From assembly GCA_003243915.1 (NCBI GenBank), contig QHCC01000043.1, forward strand, positions 1 to 59,914: DNA of 59,914 bases, given 5' to 3'. A program made the translations under genes and the position numbers. A model generated the notes under the pieces. That model saw only the letters and a list, made by a program, of their open reading frames with translations, had not been told where the DNA came from and did not search any database. The stretch comes from Pseudonocardiales bacterium. Its GTDB lineage: Bacteria > Actinomycetota > Actinomycetes > Mycobacteriales > Jatrophihabitantaceae. Shown here piece after piece: positions 30,149 through 44,442 of this stretch; the stretch's first letter is position 1, and each line of letters begins with the position of its first letter.

Positions 30149-30463
30149 GTCAACGTCGGTGCGGGTCGGGATGCCACGGGGTGTGGTCGCGGCTCGCAGC
30201 CGGCGCGCGGGCGGCCTGGAGCTGGTAATCGGTGATCCCGCCGGTTTCCCACGGGCCGGCCGAGCCGGCGGCCAGCGCGGCGGCACTCCTCGGGCTCAGC
30301 GTCACCTCTTCCCGCACGACCGCGCCCGGCTGGCCAGGTCGATCCAGCCGACGTCCAGGAACCTCGATCTGTTCCCAATCGCGGGTGCTGCATGCATCCA
30401 ACTATGTTTCCGCGGCGAGGTTTCGCTGGCCGGGCGCTGGTCACGCTGGTGCACACTGCGCAT
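30149..30463. other. 315-base gap; nothing certain seen
   Basis: A minus-strand reading frame (30401 to 30150, 83 codons) is open but without a ribosome site or recognisable motif. The gap probably contains the promoter of the downstream lipoprotein gene. I do not call a gene here. Confidence 0.3.
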
Positions 30464-31756
30464 ATGGGTGCAGGCAATGAGCGGTATCGGCGACTGGGGG
30501 GGATTGTCGCGCTGCTCGGCGCAGCAGGTTCGGGGCTGATGGGATGCAGCCACCACACTCATCCGGTCGCCACGGCCGCCACGATGTCGGTCGTCCCGCA
30601 GACCGCGCTGCTGGACGAGGCGGTCGCGGTGTCGCTGCACGGGCTGCCCGCCGGCGCGCGGATCACCGTGACCGCGAAAGCGACCGATGCCGACGGCACC
30701 AGCTGGGCATCCTCGGCCCAGTTCACCGCATCCCCGGCGGGCGCGGTGTCCCTGTCGCAGGCGTCGGTGGGCGGCAGTTACTCCGGCGTGAATCCGATGG
30801 GGTTGTTCGTGTTCATGGCCCCTGCGTCTGCGGGCTCTGCCGCGACGACGTTCCTCAGCCCCGCGTCGGGTTATGACGTGAGCCTGCGAGCGACCGTCGA
30901 CGGACGGGTGGCCGGCACTGCCATCGCTCATCGACGCAGCGCTCCCAGCCTCGGGCTCATCAAGAAGGATCTCCGTCCCAGCACCAGTGGCATTTACGGC
31001 GAGCTGTACCTACCCGCCAAGCCGATCCGAGCGAGACCCGCGGTGCTGATATTCGGCGGATCTGACGGCGGGCTCAGCCCCTTTGCCGCCACTCTGCTGG
31101 CAGCGCACGGCTACCCGGTCCTGGCCCTGGCGTATTTCAAGGAACCCGGCCTGCCCCAAACACTCGCCAACATTCCCCTGGAGTACTTCGCCAAGGCCCT
31201 CACGGTGCTGCGGGCGCAGCCCGGCGTCGACCCCCACCACGTGCTCGTCAAGGGTGTGTCCCGCGGTGGCGAAGTCGCGCTGCTGCTCGGCGCGACCTAT
31301 CCACAACTGATCAACGGCGTCGTCGCAAACGTACCCAGTTCATTGGTGAACACGGGATACCCCGATGCAAGCAAACCGGCGTGGACGCTGCACGGGCAGC
31401 CGCTGCCCAATGTTGGCCCGAATGGCTTCGGCAACGCGTCCCCGGCGCAACACCCACAGGCCGTCATCGCGGTTGAGAAGATCCGCGGTCCGGTCCTGCT
31501 CACCTGCGGAGCCGAGGACCTCATCTGGCCGTCGTGCCGCTACGTCGACGCGATTACCACCCGCCTGCATGCCCAGCACTTCGCCTATCCCGTCACGGCA
31601 TTGCACTATGCCGATGCCGGCCACGTCGACGCCATTTCCTACTACAGCGCCACGCTCGCTGCGTTCGCCCGTTTCGGCGGCACGCTCAGCGGCGACCAGG
31701 CCGCACAGATCGATGGCCACAGGCAACTACTCGCCTTCCTCACCGCCCAGGACTGA
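30464..31756 (+). CDS. BAAT/acyl-CoA thioesterase-like lipoprotein hydrolase
   Basis: 430 residues from GTG/ATG 30464, where a lipoprotein signal ends in GLMGC (Cys28). An N-terminal Ig-like thioesterase domain (about 45-180) is followed by an alpha/beta-hydrolase domain: nucleophile Ser in KGVSRGGE, acid in TCGAEDLIWPS, His in DAGHVDA. This is the acyl-CoA thioester hydrolase / bile-acid-CoA amino-acid N-acyltransferase layout, here at the cell surface where CoA substrates are absent. The ATG at 30392 would destroy the signal peptide. Substrate unknown. Confidence 0.85.
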   Translation: MGAGNERYRRLGGIVALLGAAGSGLMGCSHHTHPVATAATMSVVPQTALLDEAVAVSLHGLPAGARITVTAKATDADGTSWASSAQFTASPAGAVSLSQASVGGSYSGVNPMGLFVFMAPASAGSAATTFLSPASGYDVSLRATVDGRVAGTAIAHRRSAPSLGLIKKDLRPSTSGIYGELYLPAKPIRARPAVLIFGGSDGGLSPFAATLLAAHGYPVLALAYFKEPGLPQTLANIPLEYFAKALTVLRAQPGVDPHHVLVKGVSRGGEVALLLGATYPQLINGVVANVPSSLVNTGYPDASKPAWTLHGQPLPNVGPNGFGNASPAQHPQAVIAVEKIRGPVLLTCGAEDLIWPSCRYVDAITTRLHAQHFAYPVTALHYADAGHVDAISYYSATLAAFARFGGTLSGDQAAQIDGHRQLLAFLTAQD

Positions 31757-32430: not shown

Positions 32431-33327
32431 ATGACATGTGATCGCGAGCAATCGGGACGGTCGACAATTCTTGGTGACCGAACGCTACCGGCCGGCTTTG
32501 ACCATCCGCACGCCTCGGAGCAGGCCCGACGCATCGCAGAACAGGGCACGATCCTGCGGGCCCAGGTCGGCTCCGGAGTCCACGGGACATCGATCGCCGG
32601 GCAGGACGACCGCGACGAGATGGGGATCTGCCTCGAGCCGCCGGAGTACGTCACCGGCATTGCCCGGGTGCCAGCGGGTGTGGACGCAGAGACCACCACA
32701 GTCGAGTTCGAGCAATACCAGCGCCACACTGTGTGGGATCAGCCCGGCGGCCTGGCCAACCGATCCGGCGCAGGCGATCTCGACGTCGTCATCTACTCTG
32801 CCCGCAAATGGGCGCGACTCGCGTTGGCTGGCAATCCAACCGTTCTGCTGGTGCTGTTCGTGCCCGACGAAGAGGTCGTTTACCGAGACGAGGCCGGCGC
32901 CGAACTCGTCAGCAACGCTCATCGTTTCGTCTCTCAGCTCGCGGCTGACCGGTTCCTCGGCTACCTCGCCGCCCAGCGAAGCGCGATGACTGGACAGTCC
33001 GGGGCGCACACCAATCGTCCCGAACTCGTGGCCGAACACGGCTACGACACCAAATTCGCGATGCACGCCCTACGCCTCGGGGTGCAGGGCATCGAACTGC
33101 TCAGCACCGGCAGGATCACGCTTCCGGTGCCCGAATCCGACCGCGAATACCTCCGCTCGATCCGGCGCGGCGAGATCCCGCTCTACGAGGTCGTCGCCGC
33201 CATCGACAACGCCGAGCAGAAATTGATCAGCCTGCGGGAGAGCTCAGCCGTCGCGGCCGAGCCTGACCGCGAATGGGTCAACGCCTGGCTACACCGCTCC
33301 TACCTCGACCACTGGCGCCGGACCTAG
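32431..33327 (+). CDS. Predicted nucleotidyltransferase (YcgL-like)
   Basis: 298 residues. The nucleotidyltransferase core reads QVGSGVHGTSIAGQDDRDEMGI, with the GS motif and the DxD-like acidic residues, then KWARLALAGNPTVLLVLFVP, a fold seen in phage- and actinobacterial YcgL-like Pol-beta superfamily proteins. C-terminal part (about 180-298) is helical. Start 32431 is uncertain; the N-terminal 35 residues are weakly conserved. Substrate unknown, maybe nucleotide transfer to RNA or protein. Confidence 0.8.
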   Translation: MTCDREQSGRSTILGDRTLPAGFDHPHASEQARRIAEQGTILRAQVGSGVHGTSIAGQDDRDEMGICLEPPEYVTGIARVPAGVDAETTTVEFEQYQRHTVWDQPGGLANRSGAGDLDVVIYSARKWARLALAGNPTVLLVLFVPDEEVVYRDEAGAELVSNAHRFVSQLAADRFLGYLAAQRSAMTGQSGAHTNRPELVAEHGYDTKFAMHALRLGVQGIELLSTGRITLPVPESDREYLRSIRRGEIPLYEVVAAIDNAEQKLISLRESSAVAAEPDREWVNAWLHRSYLDHWRRT

Positions 33328-35759: not shown

Positions 35760-37094
35760 TCATGGCGGAAGCAACTCCCAACCGAACTCGCTCAATACAC
35801 CCGCGTGGCGGTATTCGGTGAGGTCGTCCAGCCCGTAGGTCCAGTTGGGCAGGACCAATTGGTGCTGCCGCAGCACCAGCGCCGCGGCGTTGCGCTCCTT
35901 GCCCGACGGCTTGTTCGTCAGGCCGTTCGCCCAGGTCACCAGGTCGACCGGCGCGCTGGGCAACCCCTTCGGCACCGCCGTAATCGCCTTGCTCGCCGCG
36001 CTTGCCGACACGGTGCCGCGGGGCGGTAGGCCCGCCTTGATCGCGTCCTGATGCGGCGCCGGCGCATCATTCAGTGCGATCAATCCGGCCTTGATGCCCA
36101 GGCTCAGGTAGCGGCACAGCAACAGCATGTCGAGAGCGTCGTAGGGCGACCATGCGGCGCTCGACGCGGCCGATTGCACGCGCAGGTCGATCAGGTTGGC
36201 GATCTCCACCACCGGCCGGGTGCCCGATCGGACCAGCTTCGGGCTCTTGCCTGTCGTGAAGATGGCGTAGCGCGGGCTGCCGCCCTGCGTGGCCGAATAG
36301 CCGGCGACCACGCAGGACTTGTTCGCTGCGAGTAGCCGGGCTATCGCGCGACGGGTATTGAACGGGGTCGCCCGGAACGCGCCGTGGCCCTCGTCCAGCA
36401 CCTGCTGACCCGGCGCGAGCGACGTGAACTCCGGCCGGTCCTTGGTGGTCAGCGTCGCGGGCGGATCGCCCTGCGCGAGGGCCGGACTGTCGCAGCGGTA
36501 GAGGCAGTCGAACAGCACCAGTCGCTTGACCGGGGCCAGCGGGACCAGGTCGTTGTTGATGGTCTGCGCGACGCCGTAGCCGGTGCTGTAGCCGGCCAGC
36601 ACCTGCACCTGCGGCGTGCCCTTGAGCCCCGCGCCGGAACAGATGCCCTCGATGGCCTTCTGGCCGATGCCTTGGTTCCATCGACCACCGCTGTCGCCGC
36701 CCTCCCGGCCCGACAGGCACAGCAAGGCTCCCGTGCCGGCCCGCTCGAAGTAGACCCGCAGGCCATACCCCACTTCCTCGGAGCTGCGCCCGAGCAGGAC
36801 CGTCAGCGCGATCGTCGGAGGCTTCTTGGCTGCATCGGCTTTCAGGATCGCGGACGGGACGAAGAGCGACCACGTCACCAGATCCTGTTGGTCGAAGGCG
36901 GCAGGGACGTTCTCGGGCTGGTGCACCGTGCCGGTGGCCAACCGCGGATTCAATTCGTTGGGCAAACCGGCGCTCGATTTGGCCCACAGCACCTTGTCCT
37001 TCCCTGGCCAGGTGCCCGTCCACTTCGAGCCGGACATGGTGACGGGTATCGGCTCGTCGTCGAAGAAGGCCGTGCTCGACGTCCGATTGGCCAC
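35760..37094 (-). CDS. Unrecognised protein, alpha/beta-hydrolase-like core
   Basis: 444 residues from GTG 37094, placed by AAGG eight bases upstream; GTG 37103 is alternative. No signal peptide or membrane segment. LRVYFERAGTGALLCLSG (about 110-125), VQVLAGYSTGYGVAQTI (G-x-S-x-G like a nucleophile elbow) and VKRLVLFDCLYRCDSPA follow each other in the order expected of strand-5, Ser and strand-6 with acid in a hydrolase. EGHGAFR could supply His. The rest (about 300-444) is unfamiliar. Divergent from the 903-aa gene, so they may be partners. Confidence 0.7.
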   Translation of the reverse strand: MANRTSSTAFFDDEPIPVTMSGSKWTGTWPGKDKVLWAKSSAGLPNELNPRLATGTVHQPENVPAAFDQQDLVTWSLFVPSAILKADAAKKPPTIALTVLLGRSSEEVGYGLRVYFERAGTGALLCLSGREGGDSGGRWNQGIGQKAIEGICSGAGLKGTPQVQVLAGYSTGYGVAQTINNDLVPLAPVKRLVLFDCLYRCDSPALAQGDPPATLTTKDRPEFTSLAPGQQVLDEGHGAFRATPFNTRRAIARLLAANKSCVVAGYSATQGGSPRYAIFTTGKSPKLVRSGTRPVVEIANLIDLRVQSAASSAAWSPYDALDMLLLCRYLSLGIKAGLIALNDAPAPHQDAIKAGLPPRGTVSASAASKAITAVPKGLPSAPVDLVTWANGLTNKPSGKERNAAALVLRQHQLVLPNWTYGLDDLTEYRHAGVLSEFGWELLPP

Positions 37095-37211
37095 TGCGGT
37101 CACCTTCCCTCGGCAATCAGGAGACGCGGCGCGGTCTACAGATACGGTGCCGCCGACGCCGGTATCAGGACGGGTCGACCTGCCTCCTTCCCAGCAACAG
37201 AAGGGCAGAGC

Positions 37212-39923
37212 ATGAAGCGACTCAGCGACTTGACCGACTACAAGGGCGTGCTGCCGAGCGCGTCGGAGATCTTCGGGGTGTATCAGCCGCTGCTCGGCTG
37301 GAAATCCGGGCGGATGCAGCGTCGGATCGACACCGGCGTGCGCACCCGGCTCGGCGACTCGGTCGCCCGGTTGGCCGGTGCCGTCCGACCCGACTACGCG
37401 GTGTCGTTCGCCCCCGCTGACTGCGCGCTCGAGGTCGGTTCCATCGGGCCAGGCCAATTGAGCGGGGCGCCGTCCTTCGGCGGTGTCGTCGCCACCCAGA
37501 TCACCCAGGACCTACCGTCGAAGAAGGACTACACGCCCGCGGTCTGGAAGAAACTCGCCGGGGCCGACTACTTGGGCGAGCTGTTGACGGCGAAAGTGAC
37601 GCCCGCGGCCGTCGCGCTCTACACCGAGTTGTGCTCCAAACCGGCCCTCACCCGTGAGATGGAACGCGGCAGCCATGGCGGAGAAGTCGAGGTGCGGGCG
37701 TTGCTGGAGCGCGAATCGCGCACCGCAGGCCTCGTGCAGAGCCTGGCCAAGAACGGACGATTCAGCGTTCTGGAGCAGATGTTCTACGGCCAGGTCGACA
37801 ACAAGATCGCCCTGTGGGATCTGCTCGGTCAGGTGGATGACCCGTTCGCCACCATCGATCCGAAGCATGATCTGAACCGCGTCGGCCTGTCCCCACTGGG
37901 CGTCGCGCACCTGTTCCGCGAATACTTCTTCGAACTCGACACATTTCTGGGCACGCCGGTCGGGCATGTCTGGCTGGCGCCCGGCGCGACCGTCGAACTC
38001 ATCGAGATCCAGACCCGCCGGGTGCTGACCGAACAGTCCTTCGAGCAGGCGACCGAGACGAGTCGCAAGTCAGAGAACTCGGCCACCCAACAGGACGACC
38101 TCTCCGACGCTGTGAAGGACGAAAACCGCAGTGACGTCAAACTCGGCGTCAATGTTTCCTCGAACCAGAGCTGGGGATGGGGCAGCGCGGCCGAGTCGGC
38201 CAGCTTCGGGATGGACAACACCCAGTCCCACGCGCGGGAACAGACCCACAAGAGCATGCGGCAGCAGTCCAGCAAACTCTCCGAGGAGATCAAGCAGAAC
38301 TTCAAGACGACATTCAAGACGTCGACCGAGACCACCGATACCCAGAGCAAGCGCTACCTGCTCACCAACGCCGGCGGCGAGCTCATCAACTACGAGATGC
38401 GTCGCAAGATGCGCCACCTGGCCGTGCAAGTGCAGGACATCGGCAGCTATCTCTGCTGGCAGACCTACGTGGACGATCCCGGTGCCCATCTCGGTGTGTC
38501 GCGGCTCGTGCACGTGGGCAGTCCGCCGGACACCTCGCGCATCCCGATCCCGGAGATGGTCGTGCCGCCCAAGGCATTCAGCCAGGACGTCAACATCACC
38601 ATCCCCTTCATCAGCCTGGACGACGCCTCCAACGACGACGACTTCGACAACGGCTCGGAGACCAGCTTGGGGTTCCTGGACTCGACCAACCACATCGAAG
38701 CAAACATCAAACAGGGCCCGGTGCGGTGCGAGCAGTCTGGTTTCATCCTGGCCAGCGTCGCCGTCGACGCCCAAGGCGCCGACGCGCGGATGCACGTGGA
38801 GGCAACCTCGATCTCAGCCGATCCGGGCACGCCGGGCGCCTACACGTTCACGGTGCATCTGGACCATGTGAACTTCGGCAGCCAGAACAGCCTCAACGCC
38901 AAGGCGACGCTGAACTGGGAACCGGTGGTCGACCAGACGGCCATCGACACCGAGAATGCCAAACGGCTGGCCATGTTCACTGCCAAGGAGCAGGAACTGT
39001 TCCGGCAGGCGTTCATCGACGAGTCCCGCACCCGCATCAAGATCGCGAGTGATCTGCAGCCTCGCGCGGCCGAGGACCTGCGCGGTGAGGAGCGGATCGT
39101 GGTCTACCGACGCCTGATCCAGGACATGCTCACGCCGTCGGCGTTCGTCCCGCAACCGGACGCGCAGACCCAGCACGTCGTGGCCGAGCTGATCGATTCG
39201 ATATTCGACGTGGACAAGATGCTGTACTTCGTCTCACCGGAGTGGTGGCGGCCACGCCTGCACCACGGTCATCAGGAGACCGGCGGCTTCGACTCCTACA
39301 CCGACCCCGTCACCGGCCAGCCGGTTGCCGTACCGAACTCGATCCCAGCCGAGGACACCTTCGGTTGGGGCGACGGGGCAACCCGTGAGGACAACTACTA
39401 CGTCACCGAAGAGTCCAAACCGGCCCGGTTGGGCAGTTCGCTGGGGTGGTTGTTGCAACTGGACGGCGATGACATGCGCAACGCCTTCCTGAACGCTCCG
39501 TGGGTCAAGGCGGTGTTGCCGATCCGCCCGGGCCAGGAGCGGGTGGCGTTGAACTGGCTACAACACGTCGAAGGCACGAACGGGATCACCGACACTGACA
39601 TCTACGAGGGCCCGGAGCCGGCGTGGAAGGGCACCAAGACGGTGTTCGAGGTGCTCCAGATCCTGGCCGACGGCGTGGCGGCGAAATACCAGCAAGGGCT
39701 CACCACGACGGACTTCCCCGACCCGCTCGATGATGCGAGCACCGTGCGGGCCACTCCGCTCGACCGCGTCTTCGAGACCGGTTTCGACCCGCTGCAAGGT
39801 GGCTTCAAGGCCGGGGTGGACGGCAACTTCGAGGTGTTCGACCAGTGGATCGAGATCCTGCCCACCGATCAAGTCGTCGCAGTCGAGGTCAGCTACGACC
39901 CCAAGACCGGGCGCCAGCTATAG
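37212..39923 (+). CDS. Large unrecognised protein with Ser/Gln-rich amphipathic region
   Basis: 903 residues from ATG 37212 (GGGCAG upstream). No signal peptide or hydrophobic span. Residues 1-280 look globular; about 280-370 (SENSATQQDDLSDAVKDENR ... SAAESASFGMDNTQSHAREQ) are Ser/Gln/Glu-rich and partly alternating polar-apolar, then a long coiled or beta-hairpin region (KLSEEIKQNFKTTF) and LLTNAGGELINYEMRRKMRH. C-terminal part ends DQWIEILPTDQVVAVEVSYDP. I recall related unnamed proteins in other actinobacteria but no function. A pore, adhesion or filament role is only a guess. Confidence 0.75.
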   Translation: MKRLSDLTDYKGVLPSASEIFGVYQPLLGWKSGRMQRRIDTGVRTRLGDSVARLAGAVRPDYAVSFAPADCALEVGSIGPGQLSGAPSFGGVVATQITQDLPSKKDYTPAVWKKLAGADYLGELLTAKVTPAAVALYTELCSKPALTREMERGSHGGEVEVRALLERESRTAGLVQSLAKNGRFSVLEQMFYGQVDNKIALWDLLGQVDDPFATIDPKHDLNRVGLSPLGVAHLFREYFFELDTFLGTPVGHVWLAPGATVELIEIQTRRVLTEQSFEQATETSRKSENSATQQDDLSDAVKDENRSDVKLGVNVSSNQSWGWGSAAESASFGMDNTQSHAREQTHKSMRQQSSKLSEEIKQNFKTTFKTSTETTDTQSKRYLLTNAGGELINYEMRRKMRHLAVQVQDIGSYLCWQTYVDDPGAHLGVSRLVHVGSPPDTSRIPIPEMVVPPKAFSQDVNITIPFISLDDASNDDDFDNGSETSLGFLDSTNHIEANIKQGPVRCEQSGFILASVAVDAQGADARMHVEATSISADPGTPGAYTFTVHLDHVNFGSQNSLNAKATLNWEPVVDQTAIDTENAKRLAMFTAKEQELFRQAFIDESRTRIKIASDLQPRAAEDLRGEERIVVYRRLIQDMLTPSAFVPQPDAQTQHVVAELIDSIFDVDKMLYFVSPEWWRPRLHHGHQETGGFDSYTDPVTGQPVAVPNSIPAEDTFGWGDGATREDNYYVTEESKPARLGSSLGWLLQLDGDDMRNAFLNAPWVKAVLPIRPGQERVALNWLQHVEGTNGITDTDIYEGPEPAWKGTKTVFEVLQILADGVAAKYQQGLTTTDFPDPLDDASTVRATPLDRVFETGFDPLQGGFKAGVDGNFEVFDQWIEILPTDQVVAVEVSYDPKTGRQL

Positions 39924-42691: not shown

Positions 42692-43261
42692 TCAGACGCT
42701 GAAACGCAAATGCGTCGCGGAGGGCGTCGCCACCACGTCAGTGCGCTGCAGGCTGATCGCTTCGGCAAGCCGTGCGAACAACGGCGTCCCGCCGCCGACC
42801 AGGACCGAGACCACGTGGAGCCGGAACTCGTCCACCAGCCCAAGCGGCAGGGCCTGCTGCATGACCGTCGCGCCGTGCAGCCCGACCGCCCTGTCGCCGG
42901 CGACCTCCTTCGCCTGCGCGATCGCCGCCTCGACTCCGTCGGTGACGAACGTGTACGCCGGCGGGTGTTGCCGCTCGGGCGGGTTGTGCGTGAGGACGAA
43001 GCAGGGCGTGTCACCGAGCGGCCCTCCGTCGCCCCAGCCCGCGTCGCCCTCGTTCTTGTCGAACGACCGGCGTCCCATCACGATCGCCCCGGTGCCGTCG
43101 ATGTAGTCGCGCAGGAGCGCCCGGTCGGCGTCGGTCGCGGCGTCGGAGAGCCAATCGTGCAGCGTGTGCGCGCCGTCGCCGAATGGATTATCCCGGCTGT
43201 CATTCGGCCCGGTGACGTAGCCGTCGAGTGATACGGACATGTCGCAGATGACGAGTGCCAT
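42692..43261 (-). CDS. Dihydrofolate reductase family protein (copy 3)
   Basis: 189 residues from ATG 43261, AGGAA upstream. MALVICDMSVSLDGYVTGPN start, DGTGAIVMGRRSFDK and PPERQHPPAYTFVTDGVEAAI are RibD C-terminal/DHFR-like marks with NADPH pocket GATVMQQAL. These proteins are deaminase-reductase relatives, often of unknown substrate. Third of three tandem paralogues. Confidence 0.9.
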   Translation of the reverse strand: MALVICDMSVSLDGYVTGPNDSRDNPFGDGAHTLHDWLSDAATDADRALLRDYIDGTGAIVMGRRSFDKNEGDAGWGDGGPLGDTPCFVLTHNPPERQHPPAYTFVTDGVEAAIAQAKEVAGDRAVGLHGATVMQQALPLGLVDEFRLHVVSVLVGGGTPLFARLAEAISLQRTDVVATPSATHLRFSV

Positions 43262-43315
43262 GGATTTCCTGCCTTCTTTCCGGTAGAGAAGTCGGTCGGA
43301 GCGATTGGTCTGTCC

Positions 43316-43897
43316 TCATTGCACGACGCGGTAGCGCAGGTGCGTGACCTGCTGTTCGCGGTTCTCGGCGTTCGGGGTCAGGCAGCGGACCAGCTCGAGC
43401 TCGAAGCGCTTGGCCGGCAAATTGTCGAAGAGCCGGCGGCCGCTTCCTAGCAGGACGGGAACGACGTGCAGCTCGAGTTCGTCGAGCTCCCCGGCGCCCA
43501 ACAGGGCTTGCGCTACGCCGGCTCCCATCGCCACGACGTCGCCGTCGCCGGCGGCTGCGCGGGCCGCTTCGGCGCACTCTCGCACGTCGGTGACGTAGCT
43601 GACGGTGCCGGGCGGGGGATCATCTGGGACGCCGTGCGTCAGCACGAAGATTGGCACGCCGTCGTGGTGATCGCCGTTCCAGCGACCGGCGTTCTCGTAC
43701 GTGCGGCGCCCCGAAATGACGGCCCGCGTCGCCATGACTTCGTTGAACACCAGCCCGTTCTCGTCCGGTTCGTGACGTCGGTCGAGCCAGTTGAACAGGC
43801 GGAAACCGCCGACGCCCATGGGTTCAGCGGCGCCGTCCTGCGGCCCGGCAACGAAGCCGTCCAAAGACACGGTCATGTCAAGCCGGATGACGGTCAT
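43316..43897 (-). CDS. Dihydrofolate reductase family protein (copy 2)
   Basis: 193 residues from ATG 43897, overlapping the previous gene by four bases (ATGA). MTVIRLDMTVSLDGFVAGPQDGA, TRAVISGRRTYENAGRWNGD and VVAMGAGVAQALL are the family pattern, and RLFDNLPAKRFELELVRC closes the fold. Middle gene of three; likely reductase with NADPH. Confidence 0.9.
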   Translation of the reverse strand: MTVIRLDMTVSLDGFVAGPQDGAAEPMGVGGFRLFNWLDRRHEPDENGLVFNEVMATRAVISGRRTYENAGRWNGDHHDGVPIFVLTHGVPDDPPPGTVSYVTDVRECAEAARAAAGDGDVVAMGAGVAQALLGAGELDELELHVVPVLLGSGRRLFDNLPAKRFELELVRCLTPNAENREQQVTHLRYRVVQ

Positions 43898-44442
43898 CGT
43901 GGCCGCCGGTAGATCGAGATGACGGTCCCGTCGGGGTACGGCGTGACCTCGGCCAATCGGAGGCGACGCTCCACCGGGAGGTCCTTGAACAACGGCTCGC
44001 CACTGCCGAGCGCAACGGGGCGTATCACTAGGCGGTACTCGTCCACCAGGTTCGCCCGAGTGAGGGCTTGGACGAGCGTGTAACCGCCGTAGACGATGAT
44101 CTCGCCGCCAGGCTGAGCTTTGAGGTTTGAGACCTGCTCGGCGAGGTCGCGGCCGGCGATCGTGGTCGTCGGCCAGCTGGCGCGGGTGAGCGTTCTGGAG
44201 AACACCACCTTCGGGATGTCGTTCATGGGTTTGGCGCAGTCGGCGGTGGATGTTGGCCAGAAGCCGGCCATCTCCTCGTAGGTGACTCGGCCCATCGCAT
44301 GGACCCCTGCGTGGCTGACCCATGCCATTTTCCTGGCGACGACGTCGGTGTGCTCCGGCTCGCCCGCCCCGATATCTTCCTCGGGACCGCCGGACACGTA
44401 TCCGTCGATCGAGATGCCCATCTGCACGACCACGTTGCGCAT
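43894..44442 (-). CDS. Dihydrofolate reductase family protein (copy 1)
   Basis: 182 residues from ATG 44442. MRNVVVQMGISIDGYVSGGPEED, HAMGRVTYEEMAGFWP and GGEIIVYGGYTLVQALTRANLVDEYRLVIRPVALG match the RibD-C/DHFR family. First of three tandem copies and longest intact start to share the operon after the CDGSH gene. Confidence 0.9.
   Translation of the reverse strand: MRNVVVQMGISIDGYVSGGPEEDIGAGEPEHTDVVARKMAWVSHAGVHAMGRVTYEEMAGFWPTSTADCAKPMNDIPKVVFSRTLTRASWPTTTIAGRDLAEQVSNLKAQPGGEIIVYGGYTLVQALTRANLVDEYRLVIRPVALGSGEPLFKDLPVERRLRLAEVTPYPDGTVISIYRRPR

Follow-up and report, generated by a model that had tools for sequence, protein, structure and literature searches.

In polymorphic toxin systems a constant delivery part is kept while the toxic part is exchanged as a cassette, the payloads include nucleases and lipid- and peptidoglycan-active enzymes, and the distribution is patchy (Zhang et al., 2012; PMC3482391). 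Comparable features, with overlapping kinds of payload, characterise the family of the locus described here, a divergent pair of genes coding for proteins of 903 and 444 amino acids (aa) on contig QHCC01000043.1 of a Pseudonocardiales bacterium, whose analysed stretch of 59,914 nucleotides is hereafter called the window. The 903-aa protein, which we call the carrier, is conserved; an adjacent, variable partner gene accompanies its relatives, catalytic residues are kept in several partner families, the partner has been replaced repeatedly, and a remote relative of the carrier lies in a toxin-immunity locus. We consider it fairly probable that the pair is a polymorphic two-component effector system, made of a constant carrier and a swappable hydrolase payload. 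Such a system is probably toxic, and the arrangement resembles a weapon whose warheads can be exchanged.

Unlike in polymorphic toxins, the constant and the variable parts are here separate proteins, no immunity gene is linked to the pair in the main family, and no described trafficking domain was detected. Since a single polypeptide and a linked immunity gene were looked for and not found, we did not file the pair as a member of that class. Binary (AB) toxins such as the clostridial and Bacillus enterotoxins share the layout, with two genes that encode a large, non-enzymatic-looking protein and an enzyme of about 45-60 kDa; signal peptides are likewise missing from two of these toxins (PMC4179152). 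However, their payloads belong to one ADP-ribosyltransferase family, whereas those described here are many unrelated hydrolases. The carrier family is moreover spread over about a dozen phyla, and the carrier has neither sequence nor significant fold similarity to the B components: no Pfam or PDB sequence match was obtained, and no B component structure was among its listed Foldseek matches. The PAAR and VgrG carriers of the type VI secretion system (T6SS) and of extracellular contractile injection systems likewise combine one carrier family with many toxin families (PMC8651086), but our carrier is neither PAAR nor VgrG and most of the tested host genomes have no contractile sheath. Finally, the carrier model, with its long beta strands, weakly resembles the Tpp/Cry35-like and Cry78 pore formers of the aerolysin type; this resemblance is not significant, is accompanied by no sequence match, and concerns proteins two to three times smaller than the carrier. 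A carrier-partner pairing of this kind was not found described in the literature, a result of little weight given that the papers covered were those under an open licence. The two-gene system is apparently undescribed so far; the logic of a constant delivery part with an exchangeable payload is already known, and it is the carrier family that seems new.

The carrier family and its exchangeable partners

The first relatives of the 903-aa protein were found on an Embleya megaplasmid (40% identity over residues 225-903) and on a Nitrosomonas contig (50%, full length). A profile built from these two sequences and the window protein retrieved 116 related stretches from GTDB species genomes, of which 80 loci were kept, and the carrier alignment (A5) comprises 76 rows. 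Genes at the loci were predicted with a codon-usage caller and corrected by tblastn. A partner gene was assigned at 76 of 82 carrier loci, so that joint occurrence in many genomes, the check proposed in the preliminary description of this DNA, was borne out. The partner is downstream and co-directional in 65 of the 76 loci, 57 times within 120 bp, and seven of these genes overlap the carrier by 4 bp. A divergent upstream partner, as in the window, is present at 7 of the 76 loci, and four further partners are upstream and co-directional; three upstream partners stand 0.85-2.6 kb from the carrier. By comparison, a gap of 120 bp or less to the upstream neighbour of the carrier is seen at no more than 14 of 78 loci. 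Carrier and partner are separate genes in the loci examined, and complete carriers measure about 850-980 aa. At two loci (L043 and L044) a gene for a 656-aa VWA-domain protein precedes the carrier by about 14 bp and separates it from a distant nuclease-type partner.

Most partners (67 of 76) fall in families present at two or more loci, while the nine singletons are assigned by adjacency alone. The commonest type is alpha/beta-hydrolase-like (31 loci), followed by phospholipase D (PLD; 8), Amidase_2 (6), a Tox-REase-5-related nuclease (4), PhoD (2) and others. Pfam identified phospholipase D, Amidase_2, PhoD phosphatase, right-handed beta helix and DUF6345 partners; the Amidase_2 (N-acetylmuramoyl amidase) match is above the cut-off in L007 and just below it in L023 and L032. 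Matches below the cut-off were also obtained for AstE/AspA, Amidase_6 and Tox-REase-5 (the last in the partner of L064, E 7e-4). Many partners match no family. At the start of some partners there is a proline-rich tail or a pattern like that of transthyretin, and the partners of L035 and L082 resemble glycosidases by eye. An [AG]-[YFH]-S elbow is common to three partner groups that have no Pfam match and together account for 31 loci, and the alignments A6, A7 and A8 each show an invariant Ser, an Asp 26-46 residues further on and a His close to the C-terminal end. The A7 and A8 families are homologous (hhalign 97.9%, 4e-13), while for A6 and A9 homology was not demonstrable. All eight PLD partners retain the HxKxxxxD motif. 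Retention of these motifs suggests that the partner enzymes are active.

At least 41 changes of partner type are counted along the tree of the 76 carriers, a number that is approximate, the tree being a quick one with long branches; it is the closely related pairs that decide the matter. Carriers that are 90-97% identical sit beside unrelated partners. In the pair L008/L025 the carriers are 96.8% identical; DNA homology (91%) breaks off 3 bp short of the stop codon, the genes that follow (414 and 492 aa) are unrelated, and homology returns at 82% beyond them. The comparison of L008 with L010 gave the same break at the carrier end and the same resumption beyond the unrelated partners, which belong to families without a Pfam match and follow near-identical carriers of the Nitrosomonas group. 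Homology is also lost at the carrier end between L009 and L012 (90% DNA identity) and between L074 and L075 (91%). With DNA homology that ends at the carrier stop and, in two comparisons, resumes past the partner, these pairs show that partners are exchanged as cassettes, the variable part being swapped while the constant part is kept, as in polymorphic toxins.

The window pair and its predicted structures

Both genes of the window were called with high scores by the codon-usage caller, and the preliminary description, made from the letters alone, proved accurate on their anatomy: the two long frames are intact, full length and separated by 117 bases. Neither protein has a nameable family, as that description had also stated, since Pfam, NCBIfam, PHROGs, PADLOC and PDB sequences gave no significant match for either. 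Chance reading frames are excluded because the 903-aa protein is conserved across phyla. The GC content of the pair is 0.63-0.69, similar to the surroundings, and for this reason a view of the pair as an island by base composition was rejected.

Homologues of the 444-aa protein (26-31% identity) adjoin a carrier in a Lysobacterales metagenome-assembled genome, Microvirga antarctica, Larkinella terrae, Actinomadura hibisca and Sphaerisporangium corydalis; these five genomes, from three phyla, hold one copy each, next to the carrier. When this type was searched alone, it was found in two of 201 genomes of the family of A. hibisca, both times beside a carrier, and in one of 396 genomes of the phylum, which is the window's own. 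That two unrelated genes merely stand side by side by chance, as the divergent layout with its lack of a single operon might suggest, is hardly credible, given these five adjoining homologues and the absence of the 444-aa type from every carrier-less genome of the two samples (201 and 396 genomes).

The hydrolase-like elbow that had been noticed in the 444-aa protein is GYSTG, at residues 168-172, with S-T-G invariant in six homologues. In the predicted model, whose predicted local distance difference test (pLDDT) score is low (52), it is placed between a strand (160-169) and a helix (173-180), and Foldseek matched it to alpha/beta-hydrolases, among them cholinesterases and lipases (best E 9e-4). 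Both an elbow on a strand followed by a helix and a conserved Ser-acid-His set, as expected of alpha/beta-hydrolases, are therefore present. The protein is probably an alpha/beta-hydrolase, lipase- or esterase-like, with Ser170-Asp196-His430 as the candidate triad.

The carrier has no membrane span (maximum 19-residue hydropathy 1.19), and its Ser/Gln/Glu-rich middle is real; both points had been made in the preliminary description. Family-wide, this insert contains 13% Thr, 13% Ser, 11% Glu, 9% Lys and 6% Gln. The carrier model (pLDDT 71) has unusually long beta strands at residues 229-255, 260-273, 372-385, 392-421 and 875-893. A segment of alternating polar and apolar residues at about 305-335 reaches a beta-moment of 0.45 against a mean of 0.27, with higher values elsewhere in the carrier. 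Weak fold matches include Tpp80, Cry78 and Cry35, all aerolysin-type (Foldseek probability 0.2-0.54, E 0.09-0.7); the best viral match (E 1.5e-3) was to a giant-virus protein that is itself uncharacterised, and was set aside as uninformative. The strands and the insert are only suggestive of an oligomeric beta pore or translocator, the part of our interpretation of which we are least sure. Carriers of the Streptomyces/Actinomadura type (L065-L085) have a different N-terminal domain of about 145 aa before the 'LPYASEVFGVYQPL' motif, and largely miss a helical segment of about 190 aa that follows this motif in the window protein.

The features are collected in Table 1. The neighbouring PepC peptidase is genuine, as previously noticed (Peptidase_C1_2, E 7e-158), but incidental: no PepC family recurs beside carrier relatives, and PepC was rejected as a third component. 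Elsewhere in the window, three consecutive genes, each with a RibD_C (dihydrofolate-reductase-like) domain, form a tandem triplet of divergent copies. Other genes encode an RlaP family protein (RNA repair pathway, DNA polymerase beta family nucleotidyltransferase; E 1.6e-25) and an acyl-CoA thioesterase/BAAT-like protein with both BAAT domains present, of a family known best from animals.

Table 1. Position of the features in the window and at selected related loci.
Feature	Sequence	Position	Strand	Basis or remark
Carrier gene (constant component), 903 aa, no named domain	window	37212..39923	+	intact reading frame, ATG 37212 to stop 39923
Variable component, 444 aa, alpha/beta-hydrolase-like	window	35760..37094	-	intact reading frame, GTG 37094 to stop 35760
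Divergent intergenic region, 117 bp	window	37095..37211	.	sequence
Core module, residues 226-429	window	37887..38498	+	predicted long beta strands flanking the insert; region aligning to remote members
Thr/Ser/Glu/Lys/Gln-rich insert, residues 274-371	window	38031..38324	+	composition, alignment; strongly conserved, pLDDT mostly under 50
C-terminal motif DGDxxRNAFLNAPWVKAVxPIRPGxE, residues 752-783	window	39465..39560	+	nearly invariant in A5
Nucleophile elbow GYSTG, Ser170 at 36585-36587	window	36579..36593	-	S-T-G invariant in six homologues
Candidate catalytic Asp196 (FDCL)	window	36507..36509	-	invariant in six homologues
Candidate catalytic His430, near C terminus	window	35805..35807	-	invariant in six homologues
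RibD_C triplet	window	42692-44442	-
RlaP family protein	window	32431-33327	+
BAAT-like thioesterase	window	30392-31756	+
Partner, 492 aa	L010	10835-12313
Partner, 414 aa	L008	10839-12083
Remote carrier	L116	6010-9924
Remote locus, Bacteroidota	L126	376-8730	-	1217-aa remote carrier, 520-aa fibre-like protein, then proteins of 159, 729 and 117 aa

Distribution and remote relatives of the carrier

Full-length carrier relatives, at 35-50% identity, are distributed patchily over about a dozen phyla (Pseudomonadota, Actinomycetota, Bacillota, Bacteroidota, Chloroflexota, Dormibacterota, Planctomycetota, Nitrospirota, Rokubacteria, Desulfobacterota, Dadabacteria and Myxococcota), and many of the hosts are free-living soil or water bacteria. 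The carrier was found in one of 24 genomes of the window's own taxonomic family and in one of 396 across its phylum; the 201 genomes of the family of A. hibisca contained 10 full members. Species related to carrier hosts usually have no carrier, a pattern that would fit horizontal spread. Phage records gave no carrier match, and the lone match to a viral contig is the Nitrosomonas communis locus (L005/L006), which is flanked by transposase-like genes; a phage origin was rejected on these grounds.

The full carrier profile also detected three actinomycete proteins of 870-930 aa (L116, L117 and L118; 77% identical among themselves), aligned at residues 226-429 only (E about 1e-13) and related to the main family by hhalign (96.8%, 2e-10). 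In all three the gene directly downstream codes for an alpha/beta-hydrolase-like protein 40-42% identical to the Embleya partner. A profile of the core alone reached a 1217-aa Bacteroidota protein (E 5e-6; hhalign to the core 85%, 6e-6; over the C-terminal region, by way of an intermediate family, 97.5%, 8e-12). The C-terminal motif is weakly recognisable in the remote families, below significance against A5. Downstream of the 1217-aa protein, and co-directional with it, is the gene of a 729-aa protein that ends in papain-fold toxin 1 (PF15644, E 6e-16), and the 117-aa protein, also co-directional, is Imm35-like (E 0.003, below the Pfam cut-off). No contractile genes were present within the 13 kb examined. 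This toxin-immunity setting, as read from domain matches, is the most direct pointer to a role in conflict.

Weighing of the explanations and significance

If the pair is an effector system, carrier and payload would act together outside the producer, against other cells. The carrier would bring the payload to or across the target envelope, where the hydrolase, according to its type, may attack lipid, peptidoglycan, nucleic acid or some other polymer. As for the exit from the producer, release by lysis is the simplest guess.

Several results weigh against this reading. A recurring immunity gene was not found in the main family: a small co-directional gene follows the partner in five of 52 loci, these five genes being unrelated, and the Imm35-like gene occurs only at the remote locus G1289. 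Nor was a signal peptide evident, and no secretion genes recur at carrier loci. The carrier model gave no significant PDB fold match with Foldseek, and its insert is poorly modelled. Zincin-like, beta-helix and several matchless partners are not obvious toxins. The main-family loci were all retrieved via the carrier, so that solitary partners are under-sampled. In the Nitrosomonas-group carriers no position distinguishes between two partner types; a docking site of partner-specific residues was accordingly rejected and, if the two proteins bind, the carrier must bind generically. The first two objections are not fatal, considering that effectors resembling polymorphic toxins but lacking immunity genes were noted by Zhang et al. 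(PMC3482391), and that two clostridial binary toxins without signal peptides are released by lysis (PMC4179152). A toxin-like role, one half of the toxin/immunity guess made in the preliminary description, is the best reading, while the linked immunity gene is absent from the main family; the surface or stress system also suggested there found no support.

An improbable alternative is anti-phage defence, in which the carrier would act as a sensor inside the cell and the partner as an effector of abortive infection, effectors being swapped in the manner of CBASS or Avs systems. Polymorphic effectors, patchy distribution and the lack of signal peptides and of an immunity gene would all be expected, and the nuclease domain of the L064 partner matches the PADLOC candidate-defence models PDC-M17A. 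However, PADLOC matched neither protein of the window, no defence domain, be it an ATPase, a cyclase, a sensor or another, was found in the carrier, and no defence genes recur near carrier loci; peptidoglycan amidase, PhoD and glycosidase-like payloads would also be odd for a cytosolic effector. We give the same low credence to a non-toxic scaffold, outside the cell or on its surface, whose displayed hydrolases would serve to acquire nutrients or to remodel the envelope. This reading would suit the predominance of hydrolases among the recognised partners, the two glycosidase-like ones and the free-living habit of many hosts. Signal peptides and anchor domains are lacking, though, and nuclease and lipase-type payloads, together with the toxin-immunity context of the remote carrier, fit conflict better, wholesale cassette exchange being typical of conflict genes.

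It is very unlikely that the pair rides as cargo or spike on a contractile injection system, be it a T6SS or an extracellular one. The payload range (amidase, lipase, PLD, nuclease) does overlap the T6SS repertoire, and the proline-rich or transthyretin-like starts of some partners could be read in the same sense, but Phage_sheath_1 occurs in eight of 25 host genomes as compared to three of 14 controls and was not found in the window's own genome (82% complete), and genes for VgrG, PAAR or a sheath do not recur next to the pair. Dependence on a contractile system is thus unsupported, a sheath not being required by genome content.

Returning to the two-component effector system, we tentatively propose, as a possibility that we ourselves hold doubtful, that the carrier is the founding member of a so far undescribed, self-contained delivery device made of a single protein which, with no Sec signal, contractile machine or dedicated immunity, delivers arbitrary hydrolases encoded by a swappable neighbouring gene into or onto other cells. 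The natural swap pairs, in which the same carrier stands beside different payloads, lend themselves directly to experiments on the way in which one carrier can take unrelated cargo. The analysis also provides a lead to the function of an unnamed family of about 900 aa and of several unnamed partner families. If the reading is true, one conserved protein with exchangeable enzymes, present in about a dozen phyla, would represent a new and simple effector platform.

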